From IMG/VR virus record IMGVR_UViG_3300046748_000311, positions 1 to 20,109 of that record: DNA of 20,109 nt; one strand, written 5' to 3'. Made by a program: the position numbers and the translations under genes. This document shows, in pieces, positions 1,724 to 14,658 of this stretch. The first letter of the stretch is position 1. Every line of letters begins with the position of its first letter. Below the pieces are notes generated by a model, which saw nothing but the letters and a program-made list of their open reading frames with translations, ran no database searches and was not told the origin of the DNA. Source of the DNA: a virus.

Positions 1724-3487
1724 ATGAGCTGGAAAAGATATTTTACAAATGCGCCTGTAGGTAACAACGACGGTGGTAACATGAGCCCGTTCAGTGGACG
1801 TGGCGGAAACGAACCGGGTCCGGCAAGATCTAATTATTCTTCATATCTACCAGACGTATATGTAGGCTCTCCAAATAGAGTAGAGCGTTATGGTCAATAC
1901 AATACTATGGACAACGACTCAGAAGTAAATGCGGCGTTAGACATTTTAGCAGAATTTTGTTCACAACAAAATGCACGTAACAGAACATCATTTAATTTAC
2001 ATTTTAATAAAACAGCAACAAACAGTGAAGTTAACATTTTAGGACAATACCTAAAGCAATGGTCTAAACTACAAAAGTTTGAAACTAAAATGTTTAAAAT
2101 TGTGCGTAATACATTTAAGTATGGTGACGCATTTTTTGTAAGAGATCCTGAAACTAAAAAATGGTTTTACATTGATCCTGCAAAAGTTGTACGTATTATT
2201 GTAAACGAATCAGAAGGCAAAAAGCCAGAACAATATATTATTAAAGATATTAACTTTAATTTTAGAGATCAAATTATTACTGATCCGCATATTACAAGCG
2301 GAAATATTACAGGCGGTGGAACATCGTCAGGTTCACAAGGTTATCAATCAGGTGGCGCACAAGGTGCAGTTGGTAACACAGGAACATCACAATCAGGTTC
2401 AAGATTTAATGTAAACAATAGAGAAGTTGCTATTAATGCAGAACATGTTGTACATTTAAGTTTAAGTGAAGGATTAGACAACAACTATCCATTTGGTAAT
2501 AGTTTGTTAGAAAGTATATTTAAAGTATACAAGCAAAAAGAATTATTAGAAGACGCAATTATTATTTACAGAACGCAAAGAGCACCTGAACGTAGAGTGT
2601 TTTACATTGACGTAGGTAATATGCCATCACACCTTGCAATGCAATTTGTTGAGCGTGTAAAAACAGAAATACACCAAAGACGTATTCCAAGTGCAACAGG
2701 TGGATCAACAAGCGTTATTGATAGTGCATACAATCCATTATCAACAAATGAAGATTACTTCTTTCCGCAAACAGCAGAAGGACGTGGATCTAAAGTTGAA
2801 ACATTACCAGGCGGTACTAACTTAGGTGAGATTGACGACTTAAAATACTTTACTAATAAACTTATTAGAGGTTTACGTATTCCAAGTAGTTACTTGCCAA
2901 CAGCGGCACAAGATGATGCACAAACACAAAGCAACGATGGTAGAGTAGGTACTGCATACATACAAGAACTACGCTTTAACAAGTACTGTGAACGTTTACA
3001 AGCACTTGTAACAGAAGAATTTAATCAAGAGTTTAAACGTTACCTATTAGAAAAAGGTATGAATCTTGATGTTTCAATGTTTGATTTAAAACTTGAACCA
3101 CCAATGAACTTTGCAAGTTACAGACAATCAGAACTTGACAATGTAAGAATTCCAACGTTTACACAAATTATGGCTGTGCCATTTATTAGTAACAGATATG
3201 CAATGAAACGTTTCTTAGGATTAAGTGAAGAAGATATGGCTGAGAATGAACGTTATTGGAAAGAAGAGAATGATGAAAATATTACTCCACCACCAACAGA
3301 CGCCGCAGGTGAAATGCGTGGCGTAGGTATTAGTGGCGCGGCAATGGATGCAGACATAGGCGGAGCAGAAGACATTGATCCTAATGCAGAGCCTGATCCA
3401 GTTGCAGGAGGAGAAGCGACAGCACCTGACACAACAACAGGCGGTGGCGCAGGCGGAGCACCTGCTCCTGAAGTACCACCAGCATAA
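1724..3487 (+). CDS. 20: Portal vertex protein (T4 gp20-like)
   Basis: This 587-residue protein matches the T4 gp20 family. It forms the dodecameric ring at one capsid vertex, nucleates prohead assembly, and is the channel for DNA packaging. Family-like stretches are MDNDSEVNAALDILAEF near the N-terminus, KIVRNTFKYGDAFFVRDPET at about residues 125-144, RTQRAPERRVFYIDVGNMP in the middle, and SSYLPTAAQDDAQTQSNDGR at about 388-407. Two low-complexity parts stand out: a Gly/Ser/Gln-rich insert at about 190-226, and a Pro/Ala/Gly/Asp-rich tail over roughly the last 70 residues, which are probably disordered. The length is close to that of cyanophage and T4 portals (roughly 520-590). It starts 3 bases after the previous stop. 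A purine-rich AAGGAA lies about 14 bases upstream of the ATG, so initiation may partly depend on coupling. Confidence 0.96.
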   Translation: MSWKRYFTNAPVGNNDGGNMSPFSGRGGNEPGPARSNYSSYLPDVYVGSPNRVERYGQYNTMDNDSEVNAALDILAEFCSQQNARNRTSFNLHFNKTATNSEVNILGQYLKQWSKLQKFETKMFKIVRNTFKYGDAFFVRDPETKKWFYIDPAKVVRIIVNESEGKKPEQYIIKDINFNFRDQIITDPHITSGNITGGGTSSGSQGYQSGGAQGAVGNTGTSQSGSRFNVNNREVAINAEHVVHLSLSEGLDNNYPFGNSLLESIFKVYKQKELLEDAIIIYRTQRAPERRVFYIDVGNMPSHLAMQFVERVKTEIHQRRIPSATGGSTSVIDSAYNPLSTNEDYFFPQTAEGRGSKVETLPGGTNLGEIDDLKYFTNKLIRGLRIPSSYLPTAAQDDAQTQSNDGRVGTAYIQELRFNKYCERLQALVTEEFNQEFKRYLLEKGMNLDVSMFDLKLEPPMNFASYRQSELDNVRIPTFTQIMAVPFISNRYAMKRFLGLSEEDMAENERYWKEENDENITPPPTDAAGEMRGVGISGAAMDADIGGAEDIDPNAEPDPVAGGEATAPDTTTGGGAGGAPAPEVPPA

Positions 3488-3489
3488 GG

Positions 3490-3497
3490 AATAAATA
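3490..3497 (+). promoter_or_regulatory. T4-like late promoter motif AATAAATA
   Basis: AATAAATA lies just after the portal stop codon and differs from the T4 late consensus TATAAATA at one base. It ends 5 bases before the ATG at 3503. In T4 this motif occupies the -10 region, so transcription should begin at or next to that ATG. An AAGGA at 3486-3490 lies 12 bases from the ATG and would be usable only on read-through transcripts. The same motif recurs five more times in gene gaps in this window. Confidence 0.65.
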
Positions 3498-3502
3498 GTT
3501 AC

Positions 3503-3742
3503 ATGATACTAAGAGAATTATTTTATTTTGACAAAGAAACACTTGAACCAACAGAAGACAAGTCATATGATTCTGCTGACGATGAAGGTGTTGTATCAAG
3601 AGACGACACAAGAAAAACAAGACTAAGCCTACGTCAAATCAACAAAGCACGTAGAGCTGGCGAATTTCATAACGAAGAACAACAGAAAGAGTTACATTTT
3701 GTAAGACAGATGTACGGATTGGCATCACAACCTGAAGCATAG
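3503..3742 (+). CDS. Small charged protein between portal and prohead core genes
   Basis: This 79-residue protein has an acidic N-terminal half (FDKETLEPTEDKSYDSADDE) and a basic second half containing DTRKTRLSLRQINKARRAGE. That part looks like an amphipathic helix of a kind seen in small proteins next to gene 20 in marine T4-like phages. I cannot assign a function from sequence. Its position between gp20 and the gp67-like gene fits a minor prohead-core or head protein, which is inference. The start is set by a late-promoter motif ending 5 bases upstream, with no Shine-Dalgarno at normal spacing. It is followed 8 bases later by the next gene, which has its own AGGAG. Confidence 0.85.
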   Translation: MILRELFYFDKETLEPTEDKSYDSADDEGVVSRDDTRKTRLSLRQINKARRAGEFHNEEQQKELHFVRQMYGLASQPEA

Positions 3743-3750
3743 GAGATGAT

Positions 3751-4347
3751 ATGTCAACAGCATTCGTTGTTGGTAACGGCACAAGTCGCAAACCCATAAG
3801 TTTAGAAGCATTAAAACAGTACGGTCCTATCTATGCCTGTAACGCAGTTTATAGAGACTTTAGGCCAGACTATCTTGTAGCAGTAGATGCCAAGATGGTG
3901 CTTGAAATTTGCAAAACAGGCTGGCAAAAGCACAACAAAGTATACACTAATCACAATAAACAGTTAAACGACATACAAGGACTCAACATTTTAAACCCCA
4001 GTAAAGGCTGGAGTAGTGGTCCTACAGCATTAGATCTTGCTTCAGACCACGGACACGATCCTATATATTTGTTAGGATTTGACTTTAAAGGCACTACAGG
4101 CACCGGAAAAGGCGATGATAAGGTAAACAACTTATACGCTGGTACATTTAATTACAAGCGAGAAAACGACCCTGCAACATATTTTGGTAACTGGGAGCGT
4201 CAAGTAGGCATAATATGCCAAAGAAATCATAGAAAGAGATATATAAGAGTAGTAGCAGAAGGAGATAAATTCCTACCAGGAAGTCTAAAAAACTTTACAA
4301 ATTTATCCCATGTAAATATCGAAGAATTTCAGAAAATCTTCGGTTAA
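3751..4347 (+). CDS. Hypothetical protein with DUF115/GT42-like nucleotide-sugar-binding signature
   Basis: The protein has 198 residues. Visible motifs are an N-terminal beta strand and glycine loop FVVGNGTSR (residues 5-13), YACNAVYRDF (28-37), DYLVAVD (40-46), KGWSSGPTALDLAS (85-98) and PIYLLGFDF (104-112). The order GNG(P/T)S, then CN, then S-S-G followed by a helix, then YL-G-DF resembles the Rossmann-like fold of GT42 sialyltransferases and of DUF115/motility-accessory-factor proteins, as I recall these families. Such enzymes transfer nucleotide-activated sugars, but no activity can be proved here and the active-site base is not evident. A good AGGAG precedes the ATG by 6 bases. It sits inside the capsid operon between portal and core genes, so it could modify a virion protein or have become structural. 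The CDS is certain; the function is tentative. Confidence 0.8.
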   Translation: MSTAFVVGNGTSRKPISLEALKQYGPIYACNAVYRDFRPDYLVAVDAKMVLEICKTGWQKHNKVYTNHNKQLNDIQGLNILNPSKGWSSGPTALDLASDHGHDPIYLLGFDFKGTTGTGKGDDKVNNLYAGTFNYKRENDPATYFGNWERQVGIICQRNHRKRYIRVVAEGDKFLPGSLKNFTNLSHVNIEEFQKIFG

Positions 4348-4461
4348 TTTCATTAAGGTTTCAAAATCCTGCGTTTTGAGCCTATATTCCACGTATTTTC
4401 CCTATTATATGTAAATATTATTGACAGCCTTACCAAACGTAAACTTATAGGAGGTACTACA
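4348..4461 (+). promoter_or_regulatory. Intergenic leader with possible hairpin and weak late-like motif
   Basis: This is the longest gap inside the capsid block. TCAAAA (4361-4366) can pair with TTTTGA (4374-4379), and GG (4357-4358) with CC (4381-4382), giving a modest hairpin without a T-run, so it is not a good terminator. TGTAAATA (4410-4417) differs from the late consensus at one base and would give a leader of roughly 40 bases. TTGACA at 4421-4426 is a perfect -35 hexamer but has no good -10 at proper spacing. A strong TAGGAGG Shine-Dalgarno at 4448-4454 precedes the next ATG. An extra promoter for the acidic core protein is plausible but unproven. Confidence 0.3.
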
Positions 4462-5433
4462 ATGGCAGACCGTAACAAATTCGAGCAAATGCTTGAAAAA
4501 TTAGTTAACGAAGATAAGAAAGGTGCAGAAGAACTGTTCCATGAAATCGTCGTTGAAAAATCAAGAACAATTTATGAAAATTTATTAGAAGATGAGTTAG
4601 CAGACGAGTCTAAAGACGAAGACACTAACGAAGCAACTGACGAAGAAGTTGATGAATCTTCAAAAGACGAAGAAGTTGACGAAGCAAAAGACGAAGATGA
4701 AAAAACAGATGAGTCTAAAGATGAAAACGTTGACGAAGCAAAAGACGAAGACGAAAAAACTGATGAGTCTAAGGACGAAGAAGTTGACGAAAACTTTGCA
4801 GAAATTACACCAGAAGCAGATGATGACATGGGCGGCGATCCAGCAGACGACATGATGGCTGATATCGAAGCAGATGCAGATGGCGAAGAAGGTGACGACG
4901 ACAAGGGCGACGAAGATATGGAAGACCGTGTTGTTGATTTAGAAGATGCACTTGACGACCTTAAAGCAGAATTTGAAAAAATGATGGGCGATAAGGAAGA
5001 AGGTGACGATGATGATTCTGAGGAAGCACCAATGGACGACATGGGTGACGACGAAGAAGAAAAGGAAGATGAAGCAATATCTTCCGATCTTAGCGTAGAA
5101 GATGAAGTACCAGCATTTGAAGGTACTAAATCACAAACTGAGCAAATGAGAGAGTATGTTGAAAAAGTTGCTGAGCCAAAAGGCGAAGATAACAAAGCAA
5201 AATCTCCAGTTGCTGGTAAAAATGATATGGGCGGTTCAGCGGCTAATATCGCAAAAGGATCTGCAGAAGAAAAAGGTGGTACTGTAAGTGCTCCTAAAAC
5301 TGAAGATCATGGTAATGTAAACGTACCAGGCGGTAAAGCATCTAAGTCTATGTCAAACGCTAAAGGCCACGGCGCTGAGAAAAAAGGCGCAGGCGAAGCA
5401 GGAGCAGATAGCAATAGTGTTATCGGTTCTTAA
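4462..5433 (+). CDS. 67: Acidic prohead core protein (gp67-like, enlarged)
   Basis: The protein has 323 residues. The first 46 look helical (KKGAEELFHEIVVEKSRTIY at 19-38). They are followed by an extremely Asp/Glu-rich region at about 43-220 that includes two exact-length 18-residue repeats (VDEAKDEDEKTDESKDE core). A predicted coiled coil near 155-178 (MEDRVVDLEDALDDLKAEFE) comes next, and then a Gly/Ala/Ser/Lys-rich tail. T4 gp67 is a core protein of about 80 residues with a helical start and an acidic tail, encoded between 20 and 21; this gene has the same place and architecture but is about four times longer. The likely role is prohead scaffold core, partly digested by gp21. The start has a strong AGGAGG. 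Confidence in coding is near certain; homology to gp67 rests on layout and N-terminal pattern. Confidence 0.75.
   Translation: MADRNKFEQMLEKLVNEDKKGAEELFHEIVVEKSRTIYENLLEDELADESKDEDTNEATDEEVDESSKDEEVDEAKDEDEKTDESKDENVDEAKDEDEKTDESKDEEVDENFAEITPEADDDMGGDPADDMMADIEADADGEEGDDDKGDEDMEDRVVDLEDALDDLKAEFEKMMGDKEEGDDDDSEEAPMDDMGDDEEEKEDEAISSDLSVEDEVPAFEGTKSQTEQMREYVEKVAEPKGEDNKAKSPVAGKNDMGGSAANIAKGSAEEKGGTVSAPKTEDHGNVNVPGGKASKSMSNAKGHGAEKKGAGEAGADSNSVIGS
4675..4791 (+). repeat. 54-bp tandem repeat in the acidic core gene
   Basis: Two adjacent in-frame 54-bp units begin with GTTGACGAAGCAAAAGACGA at 4675 and 4729, and a third partial unit (GTTGACGAA) starts at 4783. Each encodes 18 residues. The two copies differ at a few bases, mostly silent. 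A degenerate earlier unit (GAAGTTGATGAATCTTC) is visible from about 4645. In-frame duplication has lengthened the acidic region. Confidence 0.9.
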
Positions 5434-5450
5434 TTGTTAGGGAATAGTTG

Positions 5451-6068
5451 ATGAACTTATTACGTGAGAACTTGACATTCGACCAGGCTCAGATTGTTCT
5501 GGAATCTACTGAGGACGGCAAAGACCTTCATTTAAAAGGTATTTGTATACAGGGTGGCGTTCGCAATGCGAACCAACGTATATACCCCGTAAGTGAAATT
5601 AGTAGGGCTGTCAACACTCTTAACGATCAGATTCAAGGAGGATATTCAGTTCTTGGTGAAGTTGATCATCCAGAAGGCCTTAACATTAACCTTGACCGTT
5701 GTTCGCACATGATTAAAGAAATGTGGATGGATGGACCAAACGGTTATGGAAAGTTAAAAGTATTACCTACGCCGATGGGACAACTTGTTAAAACAATGCT
5801 GGAAAGCGGAGTTAAACTTGGTGTTTCATCGCGTGGTTCAGGTAACGTAAATGAAGACAGTAACGTAAGCGACTTTGAAATTATCACAGTTGATATAGTT
5901 GCTCAACCATCGGCTCCAGGAGCATATCCAACTCCAATATACGAGCACTTGATGAATACCACAGGTGGGTATAAGGCATTTAATATGGCTCGCGAAGTAA
6001 AAGAAGACACAAAGGCACAGAAGTATTTGAAAGAATCTTTGGTTAACATTATCCAAGGTTTAAAATAA
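5451..6068 (+). CDS. 21: Prohead core protein protease (T4 gp21-like)
   Basis: This 205-residue serine protease of the herpesvirus/HK97-type prohead protease group (MEROPS S77/U9, T4 gp21) removes the scaffold and trims head proteins before DNA packaging. Visible signatures are NANQRIYP (39-46), GEVDHPEG with probable catalytic His73, GVSSRGSG with probable catalytic Ser126 or Ser127, and TVDIVAQPSAPGAYP, in which Asp148 is conserved. The size is close to T4 gp21 (about 212). The frame also allows a TTG at 5448, but the ATG at 5451 is the natural start, with a weak TTAGGGA upstream. It lies between the gp67-like and gp22 genes, as in T4. Substrates in this window probably include gp22, gp67-like and gp23. 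Confidence 0.95.
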   Translation: MNLLRENLTFDQAQIVLESTEDGKDLHLKGICIQGGVRNANQRIYPVSEISRAVNTLNDQIQGGYSVLGEVDHPEGLNINLDRCSHMIKEMWMDGPNGYGKLKVLPTPMGQLVKTMLESGVKLGVSSRGSGNVNEDSNVSDFEIITVDIVAQPSAPGAYPTPIYEHLMNTTGGYKAFNMAREVKEDTKAQKYLKESLVNIIQGLK

Positions 6069-6078
6069 GGAGAACATG

Positions 6079-7182
6079 ATGTTGGAAGCACTGAAATCAC
6101 TTTTTGAGAATAACGTAATTTCGGAAGACATCAAAGCATCTATTGAAGAAGCATGGGCGGCTAAGATTACAGAGAACCGTCAGGAAGTAACCGCAGAACT
6201 TCGCGAAGAATTTGCTCAAAAATATGACCACGATAAGTCAGTAATGGCTGAAGCAGTGGAAAAAATGGTTGAGGATAGACTTGGTGCAGAGATTACGGAA
6301 TTTGCTGATGACCGCACAAAACTTGCTGAAGCAAGAGCAAAGTACCATGTAGCAATGCGTGAAAACGCAGACCTACTTAAAAACTTTGTTGTTGCACAAT
6401 TAGGCAAGGAAGTTTCAGAGTTACACGAAGACCAAAAAGCAATGTCAACTAAATTTGGCAAACTTGAGGAATTTGTGGTAGAGGCTTTGGCTAAAGAAAT
6501 TGCAGAGTTCCACGAAGACAAAAAGGATCTTGCAGAAACTAAAGTTCGACTAATTAGAGAGGCTAAGAAGCATCTTGATACTGTAAAAGAAAAATTCGTT
6601 AAAAACGGAGCGAAAGTTGTTGAAAACACAGTTGCAAAAACTCTTACAAAAGAGATTGGGCAACTTAAAGAAGACATCGACTCAGCACGTAAAAACGATT
6701 TTGGTAGAAAACTGTTTGAAACATTCCAAGAAGAGTACACTAATTCTTACTTGAATGAGAAATCAGAAACTGCTAAACTTTTAAAAGTTGTAGAGGTGAA
6801 AGACAAGCAATTAGCAGAAGCGAAAGCAACTGTTGAGAAAACAACTAAATTAGTTGAGTCTAAGGATCTTGAGTTCAAAAAAGCACAAGATACTGCAAAA
6901 AGAAAAGAAGTAATTTCCGAGTTAACTGCTCCATTGAGCAAGGAACAGAAAGAAATTATGTCAGACTTACTGGAGTCTGTACAAACTGCTAATATCCAAA
7001 AACAGTTTGACAAGTACTTACCGTCCGTTATTGATGGTAACACTCCAGAGAAGAAGAAGGCGACACTTACCGAGGCAAAAGAAGTAACAGGCAATAAAGA
7101 AGAATCTAACGTTAGAAATGGCGCAAGTAATTCTGCAACAGATAATGTCGTAGATATTAGAAGACTTGCAGGATTAAAATAA
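6079..7182 (+). CDS. 22: Prohead scaffolding core protein (T4 gp22-like)
   Basis: This protein of about 367 residues is almost entirely charged and helical, with long coiled-coil runs (for example ADDRTKLAEARAKYHVAMRE and VEVKDKQLAEAKATVEKTTK), as expected for the major core scaffold around which gp23 assembles. The C-terminus is less charged and ends NVVDIRRLAGLK. Many Leu/Ile-X-Glu triplets (LAE, IAE) could be gp21 cleavage sites. Position between gp21 and gp23 makes the assignment firm although sequence identity to T4 is probably low. Two ATGs are adjacent (6076, 6079). I chose 6079 because it leaves 6 bases after GGAG, the same spacing as gp23; starting at 6076 adds one Met. Confidence 0.92.
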   Translation: MLEALKSLFENNVISEDIKASIEEAWAAKITENRQEVTAELREEFAQKYDHDKSVMAEAVEKMVEDRLGAEITEFADDRTKLAEARAKYHVAMRENADLLKNFVVAQLGKEVSELHEDQKAMSTKFGKLEEFVVEALAKEIAEFHEDKKDLAETKVRLIREAKKHLDTVKEKFVKNGAKVVENTVAKTLTKEIGQLKEDIDSARKNDFGRKLFETFQEEYTNSYLNEKSETAKLLKVVEVKDKQLAEAKATVEKTTKLVESKDLEFKKAQDTAKRKEVISELTAPLSKEQKEIMSDLLESVQTANIQKQFDKYLPSVIDGNTPEKKKATLTEAKEVTGNKEESNVRNGASNSATDNVVDIRRLAGLK

Positions 7183-7192
7183 GGAGAAATCA

Positions 7193-8356
7193 ATGTCAGA
7201 ACTATTAGAAAGTAGATGGCAGGAAACTAAGAGCGCATTACTTGAAGGCCTACAAGGCAATAAGAAGTCTGTTATGTCTGCTACGCTTGACAACACCAAG
7301 AAATACTTGGCTGAGTCGGCTACAGCAGGAGCAACTTCTGCCGGTAATGTTGCAACTTTAAATAGAGTTATCCTACCAGTAATAAGAAGGGTCATGCCTA
7401 CAGTGATCGCTAACGAAATCGTTGGTGTTCAACCTATGACAGGACCAGTGGGTCAAATCCACACATTAAGAGTTCGTTACTCAGACACATTAGATGATGT
7501 GACTGCAGGCGAAGAGGCTCTATCACCGTTCAAGATTGGCTTAGGCTATTCAGGTGGTGGATCTACTGATAAGGCATCTGCTACAGCGGCACTTGAAGGT
7601 GAAGCAGGTAAGAGATTGTCAATTCAGATCTTAAAACAAACAGTTGAAGCGAAAACACGTAAGTTAAGTGCTCGTTGGACTTTTGAATCTGCACAAGATG
7701 CACAAGCACAACAGGGTATCGACGTTGAAGCGGAAATTATGGCGGCTTTAGCACAAGAAATTACTGCTGAAATCGACCAAGAAGTTCTTGCTTCTTTACG
7801 TAACTTGGCTGGCGCGGCTGAATCAGATGTACAGTACGATCAAACTGCTGTATCAGGAACTGCTACATTCGTCGGTGACGAACATGCGGCACTTGCTGTA
7901 ATGATTAACAGAGCGGCTAACAAGATCGCACAGCGTACAAGACGTGGCGCTGGTAACTTTGCAGTGGTATCACCGCATACGTTAACAGTACTTCAGTCTG
8001 CTACAACTTCAGCGTTCGCAAGAACAACTGAAGGAACTTTTGAAGCACCTACTAACACTAAACTTGTTGGTACATTAAACAGTGCTATGAAAGTATACGT
8101 AGACGCTTATGCATCAGACAGTACAGACGTACTTGTTGGATACAAAGGAACATCAGAAGCAGATGCGGCGGCATTCTATTGCCCATACATTCCGCTAATG
8201 TCTTCAGGCGTTGTGTTGGATCCAGGTTCATTCGAACCAGTAGTAAGTTTCATGACAAGATATGGTTATGTAGAGTTAAACAACACTGCATCATCTCTTG
8301 GTAATGCGGCTGACTACTTGGCACGTGTATCTGTAACAGGTGTAACATTCAGTTAA
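7193..8356 (+). CDS. 23: Major capsid protein (T4 gp23-like)
   Basis: The 387-residue major head protein forms the hexameric lattice of the shell. The diagnostic stretch VGVQPMTGPVGQIHTLRVRY (residues 77-96) matches the gp23 family, as do an IRRVMPTVIA-like segment before it and SFEPVVSFMTRYGYVELNN near the C-terminus. KKYLAE followed by SATAGATSAG fits the gp21 cleavage rule (Leu/Ile-X-Glu), which predicts removal of the first 41 residues. T4 gp23 has 521 residues, so this protein is short and probably lacks the insertion domain and other loops. Start: AAGGAG with 6 bases before the ATG. A strong terminator follows the stop, as expected for the most highly expressed head gene. Confidence 0.97.
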   Translation: MSELLESRWQETKSALLEGLQGNKKSVMSATLDNTKKYLAESATAGATSAGNVATLNRVILPVIRRVMPTVIANEIVGVQPMTGPVGQIHTLRVRYSDTLDDVTAGEEALSPFKIGLGYSGGGSTDKASATAALEGEAGKRLSIQILKQTVEAKTRKLSARWTFESAQDAQAQQGIDVEAEIMAALAQEITAEIDQEVLASLRNLAGAAESDVQYDQTAVSGTATFVGDEHAALAVMINRAANKIAQRTRRGAGNFAVVSPHTLTVLQSATTSAFARTTEGTFEAPTNTKLVGTLNSAMKVYVDAYASDSTDVLVGYKGTSEADAAAFYCPYIPLMSSGVVLDPGSFEPVVSFMTRYGYVELNNTASSLGNAADYLARVSVTGVTFS

Positions 8357-8380
8357 TTCTTAGAATTAATAGAAACACGA

Positions 8381-8409
8381 AAAAGGGCGGCTTTGGTCGC
8401 CCTTTTTTT
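8381..8409 (+). terminator. Intrinsic terminator after gene 23
   Basis: An 8-bp stem, AGGGCGGC (8384-8391) with GTCGCCCT (8396-8403), contains one G-T wobble and closes a TTTG loop. Flanking A and T runs extend it, and seven T follow. This is a textbook Rho-independent terminator 25 bases after the gp23 stop. It probably isolates the head block from the genes beyond. Confidence 0.95.
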
Positions 8410-8448
8410 ATGACTAAATCAAAATATATATTTTGGTAAACCTACCTC

Positions 8449-8477
8449 TTGCTTTTTTCTGCAAACAATGTTATATT
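8449..8477 (+). promoter_or_regulatory. Possible sigma70-type promoter
   Basis: TTGCTT (8449-8454) and TATATT (8472-8477) are separated by 17 bases. The -10 matches the consensus at 5 of 6 positions, but the -35 matches mainly at TTG. The predicted start is near 8484, at the beginning of the GC-rich hairpin region. It lies immediately downstream of a terminator, which favours a real transcription restart. AT-rich DNA produces such matches by chance. Confidence 0.35.
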
Positions 8478-8483
8478 AATATT

Positions 8484-8710
8484 AACTTTAACACAAACTA
8501 AGAGAGTTATAAGCTCTTAGCACTTGTGGCAGAATAACGCTTCGGCAGGGGCGTAATGCACACTAAAGTCTTTTAAGCGGCCAAGTGGCTCGGTTTAGAT
8601 GGAGGTGGTTGGAAGTAGGTATCATATCTAAACCTTGCAAAATTCAGATGTGATCTGCTTATCGAAAGTTGGAGGTGAGTTCACAGCAAGGCCTCCCGAG
8701 TAGTGTTATA
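8484..8710 (+). ncRNA. Candidate structured RNA in the gap after gene 23
   Basis: No convincing gene lies here: all three + frames are broken by stops. The GC content is visibly higher than in flanking genes and many helices can form. CTAAGAG pairs with CTCTTAG (8498-8520). An ACGC/GCGT stem with a TTCGGCAGGG loop (about 8537-8554) is enclosed by GTG-GCA/TGC-CAC with a bulge. GGTTTAGAT pairs with ATCTAAACC (8592-8600 with 8626-8634, 9 bp perfect), CAGAT with ATCTG (8645-8657), CCTTGC with GCAAGG (8633-8638 with 8686-8691), and GGAGG with CCTCC (8671-8675 with 8692-8696). GGAGGTG occurs twice (8601-ish and 8671) and the single CCTCC could pair with either, so alternative folds are possible. 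A short frame from TTG 8635 to TAG 8703 (22 codons) exists but has no Shine-Dalgarno. I do not recognise a known RNA family. Confidence 0.4.
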
Positions 8711-8722
8711 GTTGTTTTCCCC

Positions 8723-8730
8723 GATAAATA
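8723..8730 (+). promoter_or_regulatory. T4-like late promoter motif GATAAATA
   Basis: GATAAATACTTGT begins at 8723 and is identical over 13 bases to the motif at 9151. The ATAAATA core ends 5 bases before the ATG at 8736. No Shine-Dalgarno lies between or just upstream (the preceding bases are TTTTCCCC), so the mRNA from this promoter should be leaderless. Confidence 0.75.
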
Positions 8731-8735
8731 CTTGT

Positions 8736-9155
8736 ATGAAGGACGAATACACAACGGCCTTTTACGACTTGGTCAAAGACGCACAGTCAACTACAGGTTA
8801 CGAACTTCCATTAGAAGTTGAAGCGTATGTAGTAATGCTTCTTGCAGACAAATTAGACAAGCCAAATTTCCTTCCAGAAAAAACATTCGCAGAAGCATAT
8901 CTATCATTAAAACAGCCTTATAGATTAACAGCAAAAGAACTGGGTGACACGTGTCTTTTTGTTACAGGCGTATTTCCTGATTATGGTATGAGCATTGACT
9001 ACTATTCCAATATTGGAAAAAGCAGTTACAACCTTGCTACAACCAATTTAGACATTGAAATATTCGAATTATTAGCACTAAGATTTGACTTTGTACGTGA
9101 ATTTATCAATATAGCAACAAAGCCAAAATATTCTCCAGTTCTGTCTATTAGATAA
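8736..9155 (+). CDS. Conserved-looking hypothetical protein
   Basis: The protein has 139 residues, is probably mostly helical, and has no signal peptide or membrane segment. Stretches such as EAYVVMLLADKLDKPNFLPE, AKELGDTCLFVTGVFPDYG and SIDYYSNIGKSSYN resemble an uncharacterised bacterial/phage family as far as I can recall. I cannot give a function. The frame can be extended to a TTG at 8712, but that would place a late promoter inside the gene. The ATG at 8736, exactly 5 bases after the motif, is the better start. Its last bases overlap the next late-promoter motif (9151-9158). It is the first gene after the head block and its candidate RNA. Confidence 0.85.
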   Translation: MKDEYTTAFYDLVKDAQSTTGYELPLEVEAYVVMLLADKLDKPNFLPEKTFAEAYLSLKQPYRLTAKELGDTCLFVTGVFPDYGMSIDYYSNIGKSSYNLATTNLDIEIFELLALRFDFVREFINIATKPKYSPVLSIR

Positions 9156-9158
9156 ATA
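9151..9158 (+). promoter_or_regulatory. T4-like late promoter motif GATAAATA
   Basis: This second copy of GATAAATACTTGT overlaps the stop codon of the preceding gene. The predicted start of transcription is near 9164, giving a structured leader of about 90 bases before the ATG at 9256. Confidence 0.75.
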
Positions 9159-9161
9159 CTT

Positions 9162-9245
9162 GTGTCAGATAGTGTGCCGCAAGGCGGACTTATGCAGAAT
9201 ACCAACTGCGTACCGGATAGAACCCGGATAGGACTACTTATATAG
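9162..9245 (+). other. GC-rich structured leader with a possible 27-codon leader ORF
   Basis: About half G+C, against mostly A+T neighbours. Three short hairpins are visible: CCGC/GCGG (9178-9188), GCAG/CTGC (9194-9209) and CCGG/CCGG (9213-9227). CCGGATAG is directly repeated at 9213 and 9224. A frame from GTG 9162 (or GTG 9174, or ATG 9192) runs through QGGLMQNTNCVPDRTRIGLL to a TAG at 9243-9245 that forms part of the next gene's TAGGAG ribosome site. GTG 9162 lies about 2 bases before the predicted transcript start, so GTG 9174 may be the real start if it is translated. Either an RNA element or a translationally coupled leader peptide is possible. Confidence 0.4.
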
Positions 9246-9255
9246 GAGAAAACAA

Positions 9256-9705
9256 ATGGGAAGACCAATTAATAAAAAGTTTTTCGGAGTACCTACAGCA
9301 GGTGGCAACGAAATCAAAGTTGACTTTCATAACGGCTCTGCTGTTACTGAAGGTTATATTGTTAAGCAATTAGGTGCGAAGAAGTTTCGTGTAGCGGCAA
9401 TCGGTACACCAGGAACAACTTACGATCGTTTCTTAACAACAGCAAAATTAGCATCAGCATTGACTGGTACTGAAATGGCTATCACTGTTAAAGGTGATGA
9501 CGCAGAAACTTATCAGATTTCTAAGATTTCTGGAAGAAAAGCAACAATCATTGCACCAGATGCTACAGGTTCAAACGCTTTAGGCGGAACATCAATTGCA
9601 TGGAACTTTAGTACTGCAAACAATGACAGTGCTGTTCAAATTGAAGAAGCAGGTGATGACGATACATTATCAGGTACTGATGATGACGATTTCGCTAACG
9701 CATAA
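9256..9705 (+). CDS. Putative virion structural protein
   Basis: The 149-residue protein starts MGRPINKKFFGVPTAGGNEI, a beginning I associate with small structural proteins in marine T4-like phages. The body is predicted beta-rich (IVKQLGAKKFRVAAIGTPGT; YQISKISGRKATIIAPDATG). The last 25 residues are highly acidic (EEAGDDDTLSGTDDDDFANA). There is no membrane segment. A head-decoration, neck or fibre-attachment role is possible but not shown. Translation starts at a strong TAGGAG 7 bases upstream that overlaps the stop of the leader frame. Confidence 0.85.
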   Translation: MGRPINKKFFGVPTAGGNEIKVDFHNGSAVTEGYIVKQLGAKKFRVAAIGTPGTTYDRFLTTAKLASALTGTEMAITVKGDDAETYQISKISGRKATIIAPDATGSNALGGTSIAWNFSTANNDSAVQIEEAGDDDTLSGTDDDDFANA

Positions 9706-9717
9706 TATAGAATATAT

Positions 9718-9739
9718 TGTAGGGGAGCAATCCCCTACA
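9718..9739 (+). promoter_or_regulatory. Perfect hairpin with GNRA tetraloop between two structural genes
   Basis: TGTAGGGGA (9718-9726) pairs perfectly with TCCCCTACA (9731-9739) around a GCAA loop. This very stable 9-bp GNRA-type hairpin lies in the 52-base gap before the gene at 9758. No T-run follows directly (GTACTTTAGGATTTT), so it is a weak terminator at best. It may be an mRNA-stability or processing element that sets relative expression of the two genes. Confidence 0.7.
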
Positions 9740-9757
9740 GTACTTTAGGATTTTAAA

Positions 9758-10735
9758 ATGTCAAAATTTGTAAGTGTACCAAACGGAAATTATACAGTAA
9801 CAACACAAAGTGGTGGGACTATACGTCTTGACACAGGTGTTGCCGCAGGTGAAGTACGTGTAACTGGTGATCTTATAGTTGAAGGTGATACTGTAACGGT
9901 ACAATCTACAAACTTAGAACTTGAAGATAATATTATTTTATTAAACAGAGGTGAAACAGGCGCTGGCGTAGGTGAAGGCACTTCCGGTATTAGAATTGAT
10001 AGAGGTACAAAGGAAGATGCATTATTTTTAATTGACGAAACGATTGAACATGTAAATCCAAACGCACCAGCAACAGAAGTGTTTGGTACATTTGTATTTA
10101 GAGATGTTCTTGGAAACAACTTAGGTATTAGAGCGCCAAGTATTCAAACAGGCGGCAGTAGTTTATATCTTGACACAAATGGTGAAACAGTTAAAATAGT
10201 TGGATCAGCAGTAACATATAGTAACAGCATTAAGAACAATGACGATGATCATGCACTTACAAATAAATTATATGTTGATGAAGTTATTGATGCAACACTA
10301 AACGATTTAGCAATTAGAAAAATTGCAGACGGTAACACACAAGTAGAAGTAACTGATGCTTCTGATATTAGTGGACAAAGTAGAGTTGATTTTATGATGG
10401 ATAGTTCCGTTATATCAACATTCTTTCCAGACAGAATTGAATTAAATGATGTACGCATCAAAGACCAAACTATCTCAGGAACAGTTAGTAACGGTGATTT
10501 GATACTTGAAGCACCAGGCACAGGTACTGTAAGAATTAAAGATGTACTAAACATTGCAACAACACCAGGAGTTGATGATGTTGCAGTTGATCCATTAGCA
10601 CCAGCAGACGGTGTAAATCTTTATTCTAAGTCAGAAGGTCCAGGTAATACAGGCGTATATTATGTAAATACAAACAACGAGAGAGATGAACTAATAAGTA
10701 GAAATAGAGCCCTAATGTTTGGGTATCTATTGTAA
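9758..10735 (+). CDS. Tail-fibre-like virion protein
   Basis: This 325-residue, beta-rich protein has the look of phage fibre or baseplate-wedge appendages. The N-terminal part contains EVRVTGDLIVEGDTVTVQST and LEDNIILLNRGETGAGVGEG, a pattern frequent in marine phage fibre proteins. The middle has HALTNKLYVDEVID, a typical fibre linker helix. The C-terminus has DGVNLYSKSEGPGNTGVYYV and ends RNRALMFGYLL. It has no catalytic motif and no signal peptide. Only a weak AGGA lies upstream of the ATG, after the GNRA hairpin. The stop overlaps the region of the next late promoter. Confidence 0.82.
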   Translation: MSKFVSVPNGNYTVTTQSGGTIRLDTGVAAGEVRVTGDLIVEGDTVTVQSTNLELEDNIILLNRGETGAGVGEGTSGIRIDRGTKEDALFLIDETIEHVNPNAPATEVFGTFVFRDVLGNNLGIRAPSIQTGGSSLYLDTNGETVKIVGSAVTYSNSIKNNDDDHALTNKLYVDEVIDATLNDLAIRKIADGNTQVEVTDASDISGQSRVDFMMDSSVISTFFPDRIELNDVRIKDQTISGTVSNGDLILEAPGTGTVRIKDVLNIATTPGVDDVAVDPLAPADGVNLYSKSEGPGNTGVYYVNTNNERDELISRNRALMFGYLL

Positions 10736-10736
10736 G

Positions 10737-10744
10737 GATAAATA
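10737..10744 (+). promoter_or_regulatory. T4-like late promoter motif GATAAATA
   Basis: GATAAATA lies right after the preceding stop codon and ends 5 bases before the ATG at 10750, the same spacing as at 3490 and 8723. As at 3490, an AAGGA overlaps the motif's 5' side (10734-10738) and is 11 bases from the ATG, too far for ideal use. Confidence 0.7.
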
Positions 10745-10749
10745 TTACG

Positions 10750-11106
10750 ATGGCATTAGCAAACATATTAATTGACAATACACAAAAAGCAATAGTTACT
10801 GTACCCGCGAGTAAACAGTACGCTATCTTAACCTTAGTGGTTTGTAATACTGCGGCAGAAGATTTAAGCGGTGCAAACGATACAACTTTTGACTTATATA
10901 TTGTTCCAGCAGTTGCTAATCCAACTGGTACAGGATCAATTGCAGTTGGTGCTCAAACACAAATTGCAAAAAGAGTGAGAGTAGCAGGTTCAGATACGTT
11001 TACGTTTGATACAGAAAAAATGGTATTAGAAGCAGGTGATAGAATTATATTAGAAGGACAAACTCCTTATAATCTATCAGCAACAGTAAGTTACTTGGAA
11101 GTGTAA
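10750..11106 (+). CDS. Small beta-rich structural protein (paralogue of the gene at 18382)
   Basis: This 118-residue, probably beta-sandwich protein has LANILIDNTQKAIVTVPASK at the start and MVLEAGDRIILEGQTPYNLS before a final ATVSYLEV. The C-terminal pattern (V-L-x-x-G-x-x-I-I-L ... SY-(L/V)-E-(V/I)) recurs in the 109-residue protein at 18382, so the two are probably distant paralogues. Both flank the giant fibre genes, which suggests a fibre-associated or adaptor role (inference). The start codon is fixed by the late promoter. The stop TAA shares its last A with the next gene's ATG, indicating translational coupling. Confidence 0.85.
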   Translation: MALANILIDNTQKAIVTVPASKQYAILTLVVCNTAAEDLSGANDTTFDLYIVPAVANPTGTGSIAVGAQTQIAKRVRVAGSDTFTFDTEKMVLEAGDRIILEGQTPYNLSATVSYLEV

Positions 11107-11637: not shown

Positions 11638-11645
11638 AATAAATA
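11638..11645 (+). promoter_or_regulatory. T4-like late promoter motif AATAAATA
   Basis: AATAAATATAGTT sits between the small fibre gene and the first giant fibre gene. Transcription is predicted to start near 11651, exactly at the AAGGAG Shine-Dalgarno, giving a leader of about 14 bases before the ATG at 11665. This is the only late promoter here that leads to a short, conventional leader. Confidence 0.7.
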
Positions 11646-11664
11646 TAGTTAAGGAGTACTAACT

Positions 11665-14517
11665 ATGAGTCTTGGAAGAATATCCGGTCCGTTATTAAAG
11701 GCCAATCTACAGCGTGAAGCAGATCTTTCAGTAGAAACTGATCTACTGTATATAGGTCATACTGACGGAAAAATCGGTATTAATACTGTAACAAGACCAA
11801 GAGAATTTACAGTTGATGGTACTTTAAAAGCAAGAAGCACTGGACAAGACTTAACAATTACTAATGATCTAAACATTGGTAACTTTTCTATTGGTCCAGA
11901 CGGTATAAGTGTTCCATCAGGAAACATCAATATTAATCATGCAGGCGGTGTTGGTAGTGGAGTAGTTGTTGGCGGTATTAGAACATCATCAGTTGACATA
12001 CAAAACAATTACATTGGCTCGCATACTACAAATGCTGATGTAGATTTTATTCCAGCAGGCGCAGGTACTAACGAACTTATCACAGCAGGACAAACTGTTG
12101 GCGTTGATGGTAACATTCATGCAACAGGTAACATTACATTTGACGGAAATGTTTTAATTGGTGGTACAGGTGATGAAGATAATGTTAGATTCTTAGGTGA
12201 CATTGACAGTAATCTAATTCCTGATGTTACTTCAACTTACGATGTAGGTGCAAGTGCTAAACGTTTTGATTTACAAACAGAAAATTTAACAGTAACTAAT
12301 AATGTTAGCGTAGAAAATGTTACAGTTGCTGGTATTGAAGTTACACTTTCACAAGGTAACATATGGTATGTTGCTGTTAATGGTGATAATACTAACAGAG
12401 GTTCAACACCTCAAGGTAGACTTGCAACAATCAAGTATGCATTAAGCAGAGCAACATCAGGAGATACAGTTCTTATTGCCGCAGGTGATTATGAAGAACA
12501 ATTTCCATTAGAAGTTCCAGCAGGTGTTACAGTAAAAGGACAAGACATGCGTAATGTTGAAATACGTCCGACCACTGATAACCAAAGTGAAGATGCATTT
12601 TTATTAAATGGCGAAAGTACTGTTGAAGATTTAACAGTTAAAAACTTCTTTTATGATAGCACAAATGATAAAGGTTATGCTTTTAGATTTGCAGGCGACA
12701 TGAAAGTTACATCACGTAGTCCATATATTAGAAATGTAACAGTTATTACACAAGGACAAACAACAAGTGCAAGTGATCCAAGAGGTTTTGATTCTGGAGA
12801 CGCTGGTAAAGGCGCACTTGTAGATGGTAGTGTTTGTGATCATGATACAAATGAAGCAAGTATGTTGTTTCACAGTGTAACTTTTATTACTCCAGGTGTT
12901 GATGCCATTACAATGACAAACGGTGTTAGGGTTGAGTGGTTGAATTCATTCGCTTATTTCGCTAATAGAGCAATGTACATGGTGGATGGCGCTGGTAGAT
13001 GGCGTAGTGATAGCGTATTAATAAAAGGCGGTGAAATAAGATCCATTGGTTCAGCAAGTGTTTATGGAAATAAAGGTATTGAAGTAGATGGAGCAGACTG
13101 TTTAGCATATCTAATATCACACAACTTTGCTTATATTGGTTCAGGTAAGAACGTAACTAATGATGTTACACAAACTATTGTTGCAAATGAAGTTACAAAA
13201 CTAAACAACGGAAAAGTTTACTATCAATCACAAGACCAAGAAGGTAACTTTAAAGTTGGAGATACATTTTTTGTAAATCTTAAAGATGGAACAACAAGCA
13301 TTGATGCTGACACAGTTGATGCAACAGGACTTTCAAGTTTAAGAGTAAGCACAAATGCAAATACATCTTTTATTGATGGTGGAACTATTGAAACAGGAGC
13401 AATAAGAATTCTTTCTCCTAACACAATTAGATCCGTTGCAGGTCCAATTAACTTTGCATCTCCTTCAAACATACACAACTTACTTACAAATACAAGAATG
13501 GCAAGTGTAGATGTTACAGGTAATTTAACACTTGGCGGAAATCTTGTAACACTTGGAGATCAACCAAGTGATACTGTTGACTTTACAACATCTTTTGCAC
13601 AAGACTTATATCCAGACACAACAAACAAATATGATTTAGGTACAAATACAAGACGTTGGAGAAAAGGTTACTTTAACGAATTAGCATTAGATAGTTTTAA
13701 CTTCAATGCAAATACTATTAGTGTTAGTAATACAAACGAAAATTTAGATTTACGTGCAAATGGAACTGGAAATGTTGTATTTGATAATGTTACTGCAAGA
13801 AGTAATATATTAGGATCATATATAACTAATTTAACATTAGCACCAACTACTAATCTTACTATGTCAGCAACTAATAACTTAGGTTTGCCAACAGGTACAA
13901 ACGCACAACGTAAAGATAACGTGGGTGATTTGCGTTATAATACAGACTTAGGAATATTTGAAGGTTATAGCGGAGGTAATGTTAGTTTTGATGGATTATA
14001 TGATACTGACAGAGACACATATATTGATCTAAACAACAATCAGTTTACGTTAGTTACAGGAAATGCAAGTAATACTACAATTAATGGCATAACATTGCAA
14101 ACAAATAGACTTGATTCGCAGAATAGTTTCTCAATTGATGGTAATACAATAACAAGTGCTACACCTAATTCAGATATTCAGTTTTTATCCAACGGATTAG
14201 GTAGTATTAGTCAGGAAGATCTTGTGTTTAAGAATAACACAATTACTAATACACTTAACACACCGTTTACATTTAGTCTTGCAGACATATATTCTTACTT
14301 AAAGTTTGATCAAACTATGGGACTTGTTGTTCCATATGGTGATGATACAGCAAGACCCACAAGTCCAGAACAGGGTCTTACACGTTTCAATACACAGCGA
14401 GGATACCTTGAAAGTTGGAACGGAACACAGTGGGTTTTAGCGGCAGGTGGTGGTGAATCTGTTACTGAAGAATACGCTGAGTCAATTAACTTCCTTTGGA
14501 ACCTTATCTTAGGCTAA
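11665..14517 (+). CDS. Giant tail-fibre-like protein with pectate-lyase-like domain
   Basis: The 950-residue protein starts MSLGRISGPLLKANLQREAD, shared with the next large gene. It has N-terminal beta-repeat units (DGNIHATGNITFDGNVLIGG), then at about 230-300 the sequence NIWYVAVNGDNTNRGSTPQG with SGDTVLIAAGDYEEQFPLEV. That is the hallmark of DUF1565/pectate-lyase-like right-handed beta-helices, which runs to about residue 500. Two units of the type LYPDTTNKYDLGTNTRRW and two of the type P-x-G-x(4)-RP...R(F/Y)NT...E (about 739 and 887) follow. The C-terminus is helical. It is probably a trimeric host-binding fibre. The beta-helix could bind or cut polysaccharide, but no catalytic residues can be assigned. 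It has a strong AAGGAG. Confidence 0.85.
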   Translation: MSLGRISGPLLKANLQREADLSVETDLLYIGHTDGKIGINTVTRPREFTVDGTLKARSTGQDLTITNDLNIGNFSIGPDGISVPSGNININHAGGVGSGVVVGGIRTSSVDIQNNYIGSHTTNADVDFIPAGAGTNELITAGQTVGVDGNIHATGNITFDGNVLIGGTGDEDNVRFLGDIDSNLIPDVTSTYDVGASAKRFDLQTENLTVTNNVSVENVTVAGIEVTLSQGNIWYVAVNGDNTNRGSTPQGRLATIKYALSRATSGDTVLIAAGDYEEQFPLEVPAGVTVKGQDMRNVEIRPTTDNQSEDAFLLNGESTVEDLTVKNFFYDSTNDKGYAFRFAGDMKVTSRSPYIRNVTVITQGQTTSASDPRGFDSGDAGKGALVDGSVCDHDTNEASMLFHSVTFITPGVDAITMTNGVRVEWLNSFAYFANRAMYMVDGAGRWRSDSVLIKGGEIRSIGSASVYGNKGIEVDGADCLAYLISHNFAYIGSGKNVTNDVTQTIVANEVTKLNNGKVYYQSQDQEGNFKVGDTFFVNLKDGTTSIDADTVDATGLSSLRVSTNANTSFIDGGTIETGAIRILSPNTIRSVAGPINFASPSNIHNLLTNTRMASVDVTGNLTLGGNLVTLGDQPSDTVDFTTSFAQDLYPDTTNKYDLGTNTRRWRKGYFNELALDSFNFNANTISVSNTNENLDLRANGTGNVVFDNVTARSNILGSYITNLTLAPTTNLTMSATNNLGLPTGTNAQRKDNVGDLRYNTDLGIFEGYSGGNVSFDGLYDTDRDTYIDLNNNQFTLVTGNASNTTINGITLQTNRLDSQNSFSIDGNTITSATPNSDIQFLSNGLGSISQEDLVFKNNTITNTLNTPFTFSLADIYSYLKFDQTMGLVVPYGDDTARPTSPEQGLTRFNTQRGYLESWNGTQWVLAAGGGESVTEEYAESINFLWNLILG

Positions 14518-14528
14518 TATCCAAAAAC

Positions 14529-14536
14529 GATAAATA
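14529..14536 (+). promoter_or_regulatory. T4-like late promoter motif GATAAATA
   Basis: GATAAATACTATT matches the extended T4 late consensus (TATAAATACTATT, as I recall it) at all but the first base. It lies 11 bases after the end of the first giant fibre gene. The predicted start near 14542 gives a leader of about 117 bases before the GTG at 14659. Confidence 0.8.
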
Positions 14537-14547
14537 CTATTAATGCA

Positions 14548-14649
14548 ATGAAGGGCTGGCCAAGTCAATTGCAGGACAAACCGTGGTTATCCAGCGATAG
14601 AGGCAAGTTTTTGTCTAACAGGGTAGAGGGACAGGATCCCCGTTTATAG
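14548..14649 (+). CDS. Possible 33-residue leader peptide
   Basis: An uninterrupted frame starts at ATG 14548, about 6 bases after the predicted late transcript start, and ends with TAG 14647-14649 inside the TAGGAG of the next gene. The peptide starts MKGWPSQLQDKPWLSSDRGK and ends VEGQDPRL; it is Trp-, Arg- and Asp-containing and soluble. It has no Shine-Dalgarno. The DNA is richer in G+C than its surroundings and can fold: TGCAAT with ATTGCA (14544-14574) and GGGA with TCCC near 14628-14640. It may be a translated leader coupled to the fibre gene, or a structured leader whose frame is accidental. The parallel with 9162-9245 favours a shared design. Confidence 0.45.
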   Translation: MKGWPSQLQDKPWLSSDRGKFLSNRVEGQDPRL

Positions 14650-14658
14650 GAGAAAAAG

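Follow-up and report, generated by a model that had tools for sequence, protein, structure and literature searches.

The stretch of DNA that we have analysed, referred to as the window, is a virus record of 20,109 bases (IMG/VR record IMGVR_UViG_3300046748_000311), whose gene content places its source among the large T4-like phages; our analysis is concerned with the late-promoter motif ATAAATA, which in this window is located exactly five bases before the ATG start codon of three genes. The window contains the end of the tape-measure gene, the portal gene (1724-3487), a gene of 79 amino acids at the place of T4 gene 67 and a sialyltransferase-like open reading frame (ORF); these are followed by the genes of an acidic protein, the gp21 protease, a protein at the gp22 position and the gp23 capsid protein, and then by small genes and by the genes of baseplate and tail-fibre proteins.

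Positions of the motif in the window

Six exact copies of ATAAATA occur in the window, all on the plus strand and at gene junctions or in gaps. Three of them are located at a spacing of 5, i.e. with five bases between the motif and the ATG, as the first-pass annotation of this DNA had claimed for the 15-mers at 3491-3505, 8724-8738 and 10738-10752: the motif at 3491..3497 (spacer GTTAC; predicted first transcribed base, or +1, at 3503), the motif at 8724..8730 (spacer CTTGT; predicted +1 at 8736) and the motif at 10738..10744 (spacer TTACG; predicted +1 at 10750). The three genes that begin there, all on the plus strand and all predicted to be leaderless, the last of them in its clade, encode 79 amino acids (3503..3742), 139 amino acids (8736..9155) and 118 amino acids (10750..11106); no Shine-Dalgarno (SD) sequence is located at normal spacing before any of their ATGs, in agreement with the same annotation. 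The number of motifs is ordinary (6 on both strands, shuffle mean 6.73). Three or more motifs at spacing 5 were found in none of 2000 dinucleotide shuffles of the plus strand (mean 0.09), which bears out the claim that the identical spacing is unlikely to be due to chance, and three or more motifs at any one spacing from 0 to 30 were found in 0.2% of 2000 such shuffles. With one mismatch allowed in the 15-base pattern, there is no excess in the window (5 found, 3.88 expected).

The remaining three motifs precede leaders with AGGAG-type sites, also as annotated. The motif at 9152..9158 (plus strand; predicted +1 at about 9164) is followed by a long structured leader, with the AGGAG-type site at 9244-9248 serving the gene at 9256; the motif at 11639..11645 (plus strand) is located at a spacing of 19 from ATG 11665, in a leader with AAGGAG at 11651-11656; and the motif at 14530..14536 (plus strand) is located 122 bases before GTG 14659, in a leader with AGGAG at 14648-14652. 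No RNA family match was found in the area of this last leader (14500-14700).

Spacing of the motif in related phages

Our first survey covered 174 related loci and the window, and yielded 465 distinct contexts of ATAAATA once repeated contexts and contig ends had been dropped. An ATG is located at spacing 5 in 82 of these contexts, at spacing 4 in 20 and at spacings 6-15 in 7, with a broad class of genes that have a leader (“led” genes) beyond; the sharp peak at 5 in relatives, proposed in the first-pass annotation as a check, is thus present, and the fixed spacing of 5 needs to be widened, with spacing 4 as a genuine, smaller class. When the five A and two T are arranged in any of their 20 other orders, no order has more than 8 contexts at spacing 5 in the same set. 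Of the 102 sites at spacings 4-5, 90 belong to a single orthologous family, that of the gene behind the portal, and for this reason we counted again in 11 long contigs.

These 11 contigs (1.59 Mb, from 16 related contigs) contain 366 copies of the motif, of which the 118 inside called ORFs were dropped (9 of them at spacing 4-5) and the 248 intergenic ones were counted: 36 are located at spacing 5 and 15 at spacing 4, which makes 51 short-spaced sites; 5 are closer to the ATG (0-3), 10 have spacings of 6-14 and 173 have spacings of at least 15, and for the other 9 no ATG follows within 150 bases. Of 91 protein families, 24 include at least one gene at spacings 4-5 and 7 include one at 6-14; among the 24, 17 have short spacings only (3-8) and 7 have led members too. 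The weight of the gene behind the portal in the first survey is what would be expected if chance and shared ancestry in compact genomes had made the peak out of one conserved gene; this explanation is already contradicted by the family-level count, it conflicts with a spacer that varies in sequence and is fixed in length, as well as with the phages, listed below, that have no motif at 4-5, and we regard it as extremely improbable.

The motif was annotated as ATAAATA, which is exact for the window; in relatives, the first base may be C or G, with 14 sites each at spacings 4-5 for CTAAATA and GTAAATA. Two other single-letter variants, ATAAGTA and ATAATTA, have 12-13 sites at 4-5, so that the tolerance goes beyond the first base of the motif. 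The proposal that the layout marks specific small genes survives as a weak tendency, with a median protein length of 192 amino acids for short-spaced and 262 for led genes (p = 0.004; in this and in all further comparisons of short-spaced with led sites, the p-values treat related sites as independent). As a rule it is rejected: genes of 70 to 815 amino acids carry the layout, and some of them belong to families with a match to a tail tube, a virion structural protein, a baseplate wedge subunit or a head-tail adaptor.

Among named phages, the count was based on ORFs and on intergenic ATAAATA, with 220 of 252 kb of P-SSM2 and 400 of 490 kb of Atu_ph07 used, and with KVP40, phiM12, CBB, SCTP-2, Vibrio 2.275.O and Phosso left out; it replaced a raw pattern count, which was dropped because the control counts were often as high. 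Spacings 4-5 occur in 8 of 25 motifs in HTVC008M (all exactly 5), 1 of 40 in P-SSM2 and 2 of 64 in PA5oct, and in none of the motifs of T4 (0/39), Syn9 (0/21), RaK2 (0/46) and Atu_ph07 (0/68); without the intergenic filter, PA5oct has 4 ATAAATA and T4 has one CTAAATA at spacing 5. Seven of the 8 short sites of HTVC008M fall within the annotated stretch that was compared, and all 7 ATGs are annotated starts of coding sequences. A set of 60 loci, made up of HTVC008M and its relatives, has 84 ATAAATA contexts, of which 57 are located at spacing 5, 52 of these from two families; the corresponding figure is 5 of 51 in 20 more distant loci. In 10 binned relatives of the window, 4 of 22 contexts are located at 4-5. 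From the counts in the window group and in HTVC008M, the layout is common to two T4-like lineages.

The three short-spaced genes of the window

The gene behind the portal (3503..3742, phrog_13986) has the place and the size of T4 gene 67. The portal stop codon is located in the frame of ATG 3503, 18 bases upstream, with no ATG, GTG or TTG in between. A match to this gene was found in 133 loci, which leave 98 distinct contexts after the removal of 33 duplicates and 2 edge cases; NTAAATA is located at spacings 4-5 in all 98 (first base A in 92, C in 3, G in 3), SD at normal spacing occurs in none, and the base at -1 of the ATG is a pyrimidine in 96. The 92 contexts with exact ATAAATA have 41 distinct spacers, the spacer sequence thus being free and its length fixed. 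Residues 2-10 of the protein are kept through synonymous change (at residue 3, for instance, 91 of 92 have Leu, and the column contains 7 different codons), which indicates that the start codon is right. The orthologues in RaK2 and CBB have a leader with an AAGGA-type SD, while for the orthologues in Atu_ph07, PA5oct, SCTP-2, Vibrio 2.275.O and Phosso no ATAAATA occurs in the roughly 160 bases upstream. According to its annotation, the homologue in PA5oct was detected by mass spectrometry. At CBB NC_041878 180187-180229 (locus L271), an ATG occurs 3 bases after ATAAATA and 42 bases 5' of the annotated start of the portal-adjacent gene, a start that has an AAGGA-type SD.

The 139-residue gene (8736..9155) has no PHROGs match, and the upstream capsid gene ends about 380 bases away; all 10 distinct contexts of its orthologues have NTAAATA at spacings 4-5. 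The 118-residue gene (10750..11106; weak match to phrog_1276) has the short layout in 4 of the 48 distinct contexts of its orthologues; among the remaining 44, SD at normal spacing is present in 42.

The first-pass annotation had also placed an AAGGA upstream of two of the three sites. Its coordinates are right, both on the plus strand: one copy (3486..3490) overlaps the portal stop, 12 bases before ATG 3503, and might act as a weak SD on read-through RNA; the other (10734-10738) is located 11 bases before ATG 10750, and looks like an older, normally spaced SD that has been pushed away by the promoter. In relatives this is a minority feature, an SD-like tetramer being located just 5' of the motif in 19 of the 98 contexts of the gene behind the portal, and in 10 of 51 short-spaced sites against 9 of 145 led sites (p = 0.011) in the 11 contigs.

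Predicted start of transcription and translation at the short-spaced sites

We consider it very likely, on the grounds of the sequence signs described here, that the short-spaced genes are expressed as leaderless late mRNAs from gp55-type promoters, with +1 at the A of the ATG. The late element of T4, TATAAATA, is reported to span positions -13 to -6 (PMC1524935); with the element at these positions, a spacing of 5 puts +1 on the A of the ATG. SD at normal spacing is present in 2 of 51 short-spaced genes, compared to 98 of 134 led genes (p = 5e-19). The start codons at spacings 4-5 are almost exclusively ATG (62 ATG and no GTG, TTG or CTG in the 11 contigs; 102 ATG, 2 TTG and no GTG or CTG in a larger set), and the short-spaced sites have a -10-like box 10-12 bases or so ahead of the start codon, which is a sign of leaderless genes (PMC3160421). 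In led promoters, the pyrimidine-purine step is most frequent at +4/+5 (0.47) and then at +5/+6 (0.35), the other positions tested having 0.19-0.33; these are the two places where the ATG begins in the short class. The near-empty zone at spacings 6-14 would fit two modes of translation, one with no leader and one with a leader long enough for SD.

According to the mechanism that we propose, NTAAATA would be read by a gp55-like sigma factor on the host RNA polymerase, and, in roughly one in five of the intergenic motifs counted, would be placed at a distance of 4-5 bases from the ATG; the first transcribed base would be the A of the start codon, giving an mRNA without leader and without SD site, and the ribosome would bind the 5'-terminal AUG directly, through the leaderless route. 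Most other late promoters, at least 15 bases upstream, would give rise to leaders that carry an SD, among them, in the window, the predicted leader with the freshwater-2 RNA. A gp55-like sigma (phrog_234) was found in 12 of the 16 related contigs, which are possibly fragments, the search having been made with PHROGs after no Pfam family had come up for T4 gp55.

Several observations weigh against leaderless mRNAs, and are considered here together with the alternatives that they favor. In 41 of the 51 short-spaced cases there is a same-strand gene upstream, in 29 within 30 bases, and read-through and coupled translation may play a part in those cases; this would suit a translation signal, i.e. 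ATAAATA-N5-ATG acting as an A/U-rich stand-by or S1 site of the ribosome on read-through mRNA, with no promoter tied to the start codon, and A/U-rich starts are known to open easily. Against such a signal, the motif equals the late promoter, with the same preference for G just 5' of the motif in the short-spaced and led classes (0.47 and 0.46), and an A/U-rich signal would not be expected to leave the gap at 6-14. Moreover, T or C at -1 of the ATG, a feature of transcription starts, is present in 48 of 51 short-spaced and 65 of 134 led genes (p = 1e-9), A being the commonest base at -1 of led genes. In three divergent gene pairs, each of the two ATGs is also preceded by NTAAATA at 4-5 bases; only 26, 30 and 39 bases separate the ATGs, and any longer leader would thus run through the neighbour gene. 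As 10 of the 51 sites, in addition, have no same-strand gene directly upstream, we find a translation signal on read-through mRNA quite improbable.

The other contrary points are concerned with the exact start and with the survey itself. Seven of the 248 intergenic motifs are located at spacings 7-8, which would carry 2-3 extra bases, and in two families such spacings occur next to members with 4-5; this is what short leaders of 1-5 bases would produce, with transcription starting a few bases off the ATG, and the start site of bacterial promoters does shift by a base or two. The dominance of spacings 4-5 (51 of 61 sites at 4-14) and their match with the pyrimidine-purine step speak for a start at the ATG itself, and we hold short leaders to be improbable. 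The strongest step of the led promoters, +4/+5, fits spacing 4, yet spacing 5 is commoner, so that the order of preference is reversed; the third window site (ATG 10750) has G at -1 in place of a pyrimidine; and among relatives of HTVC008M, CTAAATA is located at spacing 5 in 15 of 41 contexts and at 6 in 10 of 41. Other letter orders of the motif have peaks elsewhere in the first survey (up to 33 at other spacings, partly by motif overlap), meaning that common descent is enough by itself to produce peaks there. Lastly, no T4-type gp45 clamp (phrog_223) was found in any of the 16 related contigs, nor in RaK2 or Atu_ph07, and we therefore speak of a gp55-type promoter working like that of T4, rather than of the full T4 system; for CBB, the absence of a T4-type clamp was reported by its authors (PMC5259590).

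With these points taken into account, the claim that late mRNAs start at the start codon under selection, made in the first-pass annotation, gains support from the spacing peak, the pyrimidine at -1 and the lack of SD, and further support from the near-exclusive ATG, the divergent gene pairs and a spacer that keeps its length without keeping its sequence. As a separate candidate, the ribosomal protein bS21 encoded by phages (PF01165) was considered as the cause of leaderless use, and is not supported: it was found in none of the 16 window-group contigs, which are fragments, and HTVC008M, which does have it, shares it with Atu_ph07 (no motif of 68 at 4-5), PA5oct (2 of 64), SCTP-2, Vibrio 2.275.O and Phosso.

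Neighbouring features and the window phage

The freshwater-2 RNA (RF02980) is located at 9173..9258 of the plus strand (73.8 bits), inside the predicted late leader of the gene at 9256-9705; it begins 9 bases after the predicted +1, and each of the 10 relatives picked for scanning has it as well, which points to a use of this RNA family as a late leader in phages. The same GATAAATACTTGT occurs at 8723-8738 and at 9151-9166, with ATG 8736 after the first copy and GTG 9164 after the second: the motifs at 8724 and 9152 have the spacer CTTGT in common, and the one at 9152 leads to GTG instead of ATG, a point that was missed in the first-pass annotation. GTG 9164 opens an ORF of 26 codons, whose end falls at the SD of the gene that follows. 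Behind the capsid gene of one relative (L093, 8002-8649), a glutamine riboswitch, a manA RNA and freshwater-2 are located in a row; the corresponding place in the window is taken up by some 260 bases of DNA that looks non-coding (8461-8720), in which no RNA family scored above its gathering score. The sialyltransferase-like ORF (3751-4347; weak match to phrog_4603) is located in the head operon, between the gene-67 and gene-68 positions.

By portal and capsid, the closest isolates are jumbo phages such as Atu_ph07, Phosso, Vibrio 2.275.O, PA5oct and CBB. A 335-kb contig binned as Neomarinimicrobiota (L448, PBPT01000016.1) has a portal 73% identical to that of the window, and is probably a jumbo phage placed in the wrong bin. 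Ten portal relatives among binned genome contigs are scattered over bins of seven named groups and one unnamed group, and therefore no host can be named for the window phage.

Significance

Leaderless mRNAs and T4-type late promoters are each known already; in the open literature, searched mostly by title and abstract and with few subscription papers, none among the matches listed reports T4-like late promoters fused to the start codon. A remark in the AR9 paper has it that transcripts of phages often lack a leader (PMC5312081), and leaderless mRNAs are reported to be spared by kasugamycin (PMC5230787). If our reading is true, T4-like phages would have a second mode of late expression, without counterpart among the T4 motifs counted, that covers virion proteins such as the tail tube. 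It would offer a testable claim on translation start in infected aquatic bacteria and, for uncultured aquatic phages, a simple rule by which to locate late promoters and the real start codons; in pelagimyophages, the prediction of late promoters is reported to fail (PMC7029224). As to what the layout might be for, the data allow a guess, namely that it locks translation to late infection: the ATG would have no ribosome site on early or read-through RNA, and these virion genes would be translated only from late-sigma transcripts that begin at the A of their own ATG. The layout occurs in two T4-like lineages of aquatic phages, perhaps because the ribosomes of their hosts readily take leaderless mRNAs. 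We put this forward tentatively, as a possibility that is rather doubtful at present.

Comparison with known systems

A NATAAATA-like element is located 5' of late structural genes in the window group, as in T4-type (gp55) late promoters, and T4 has the same element, TATAAATA at -13 to -6, before homologous structural genes; unlike the window group, T4 has none of its 39 intergenic ATAAATA less than 12 bases from an ATG. The CBB/GAP32 jumbo phages, for which ATAAATA late promoters with 35 named sites have been described (PMC5259590), share the motif with the window phage and are related to it by portal and capsid, but in CBB and RaK2 the orthologue of the 3503 gene is led, with SD, and RaK2 has none of 46 motifs at 4-5.

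The SAR11/Pelagibacter myophage HTVC008M is similar to the window group in having ATAAATA at exactly 5 bases before ATG; it differs in being filed in Kyanoviridae, in the genes that carry the layout, in the presence of a T4-type clamp and in that spacing 4 is not seen with ATAAATA. Outside phages, the bacterial TA-led genes, predicted to be leaderless from a -10-like box some 12 bases ahead of their start codons (PMC3160421), and leaderless mRNAs in general, as described in PMC9031893, have in common with the short-spaced genes the -10-like box, the lack of SD and the AUG start. In contrast to both, the box of the window group is that of a phage late sigma, so that leaderless status would follow the time of infection, and both modes occur among orthologues, in 7 of the 24 families.

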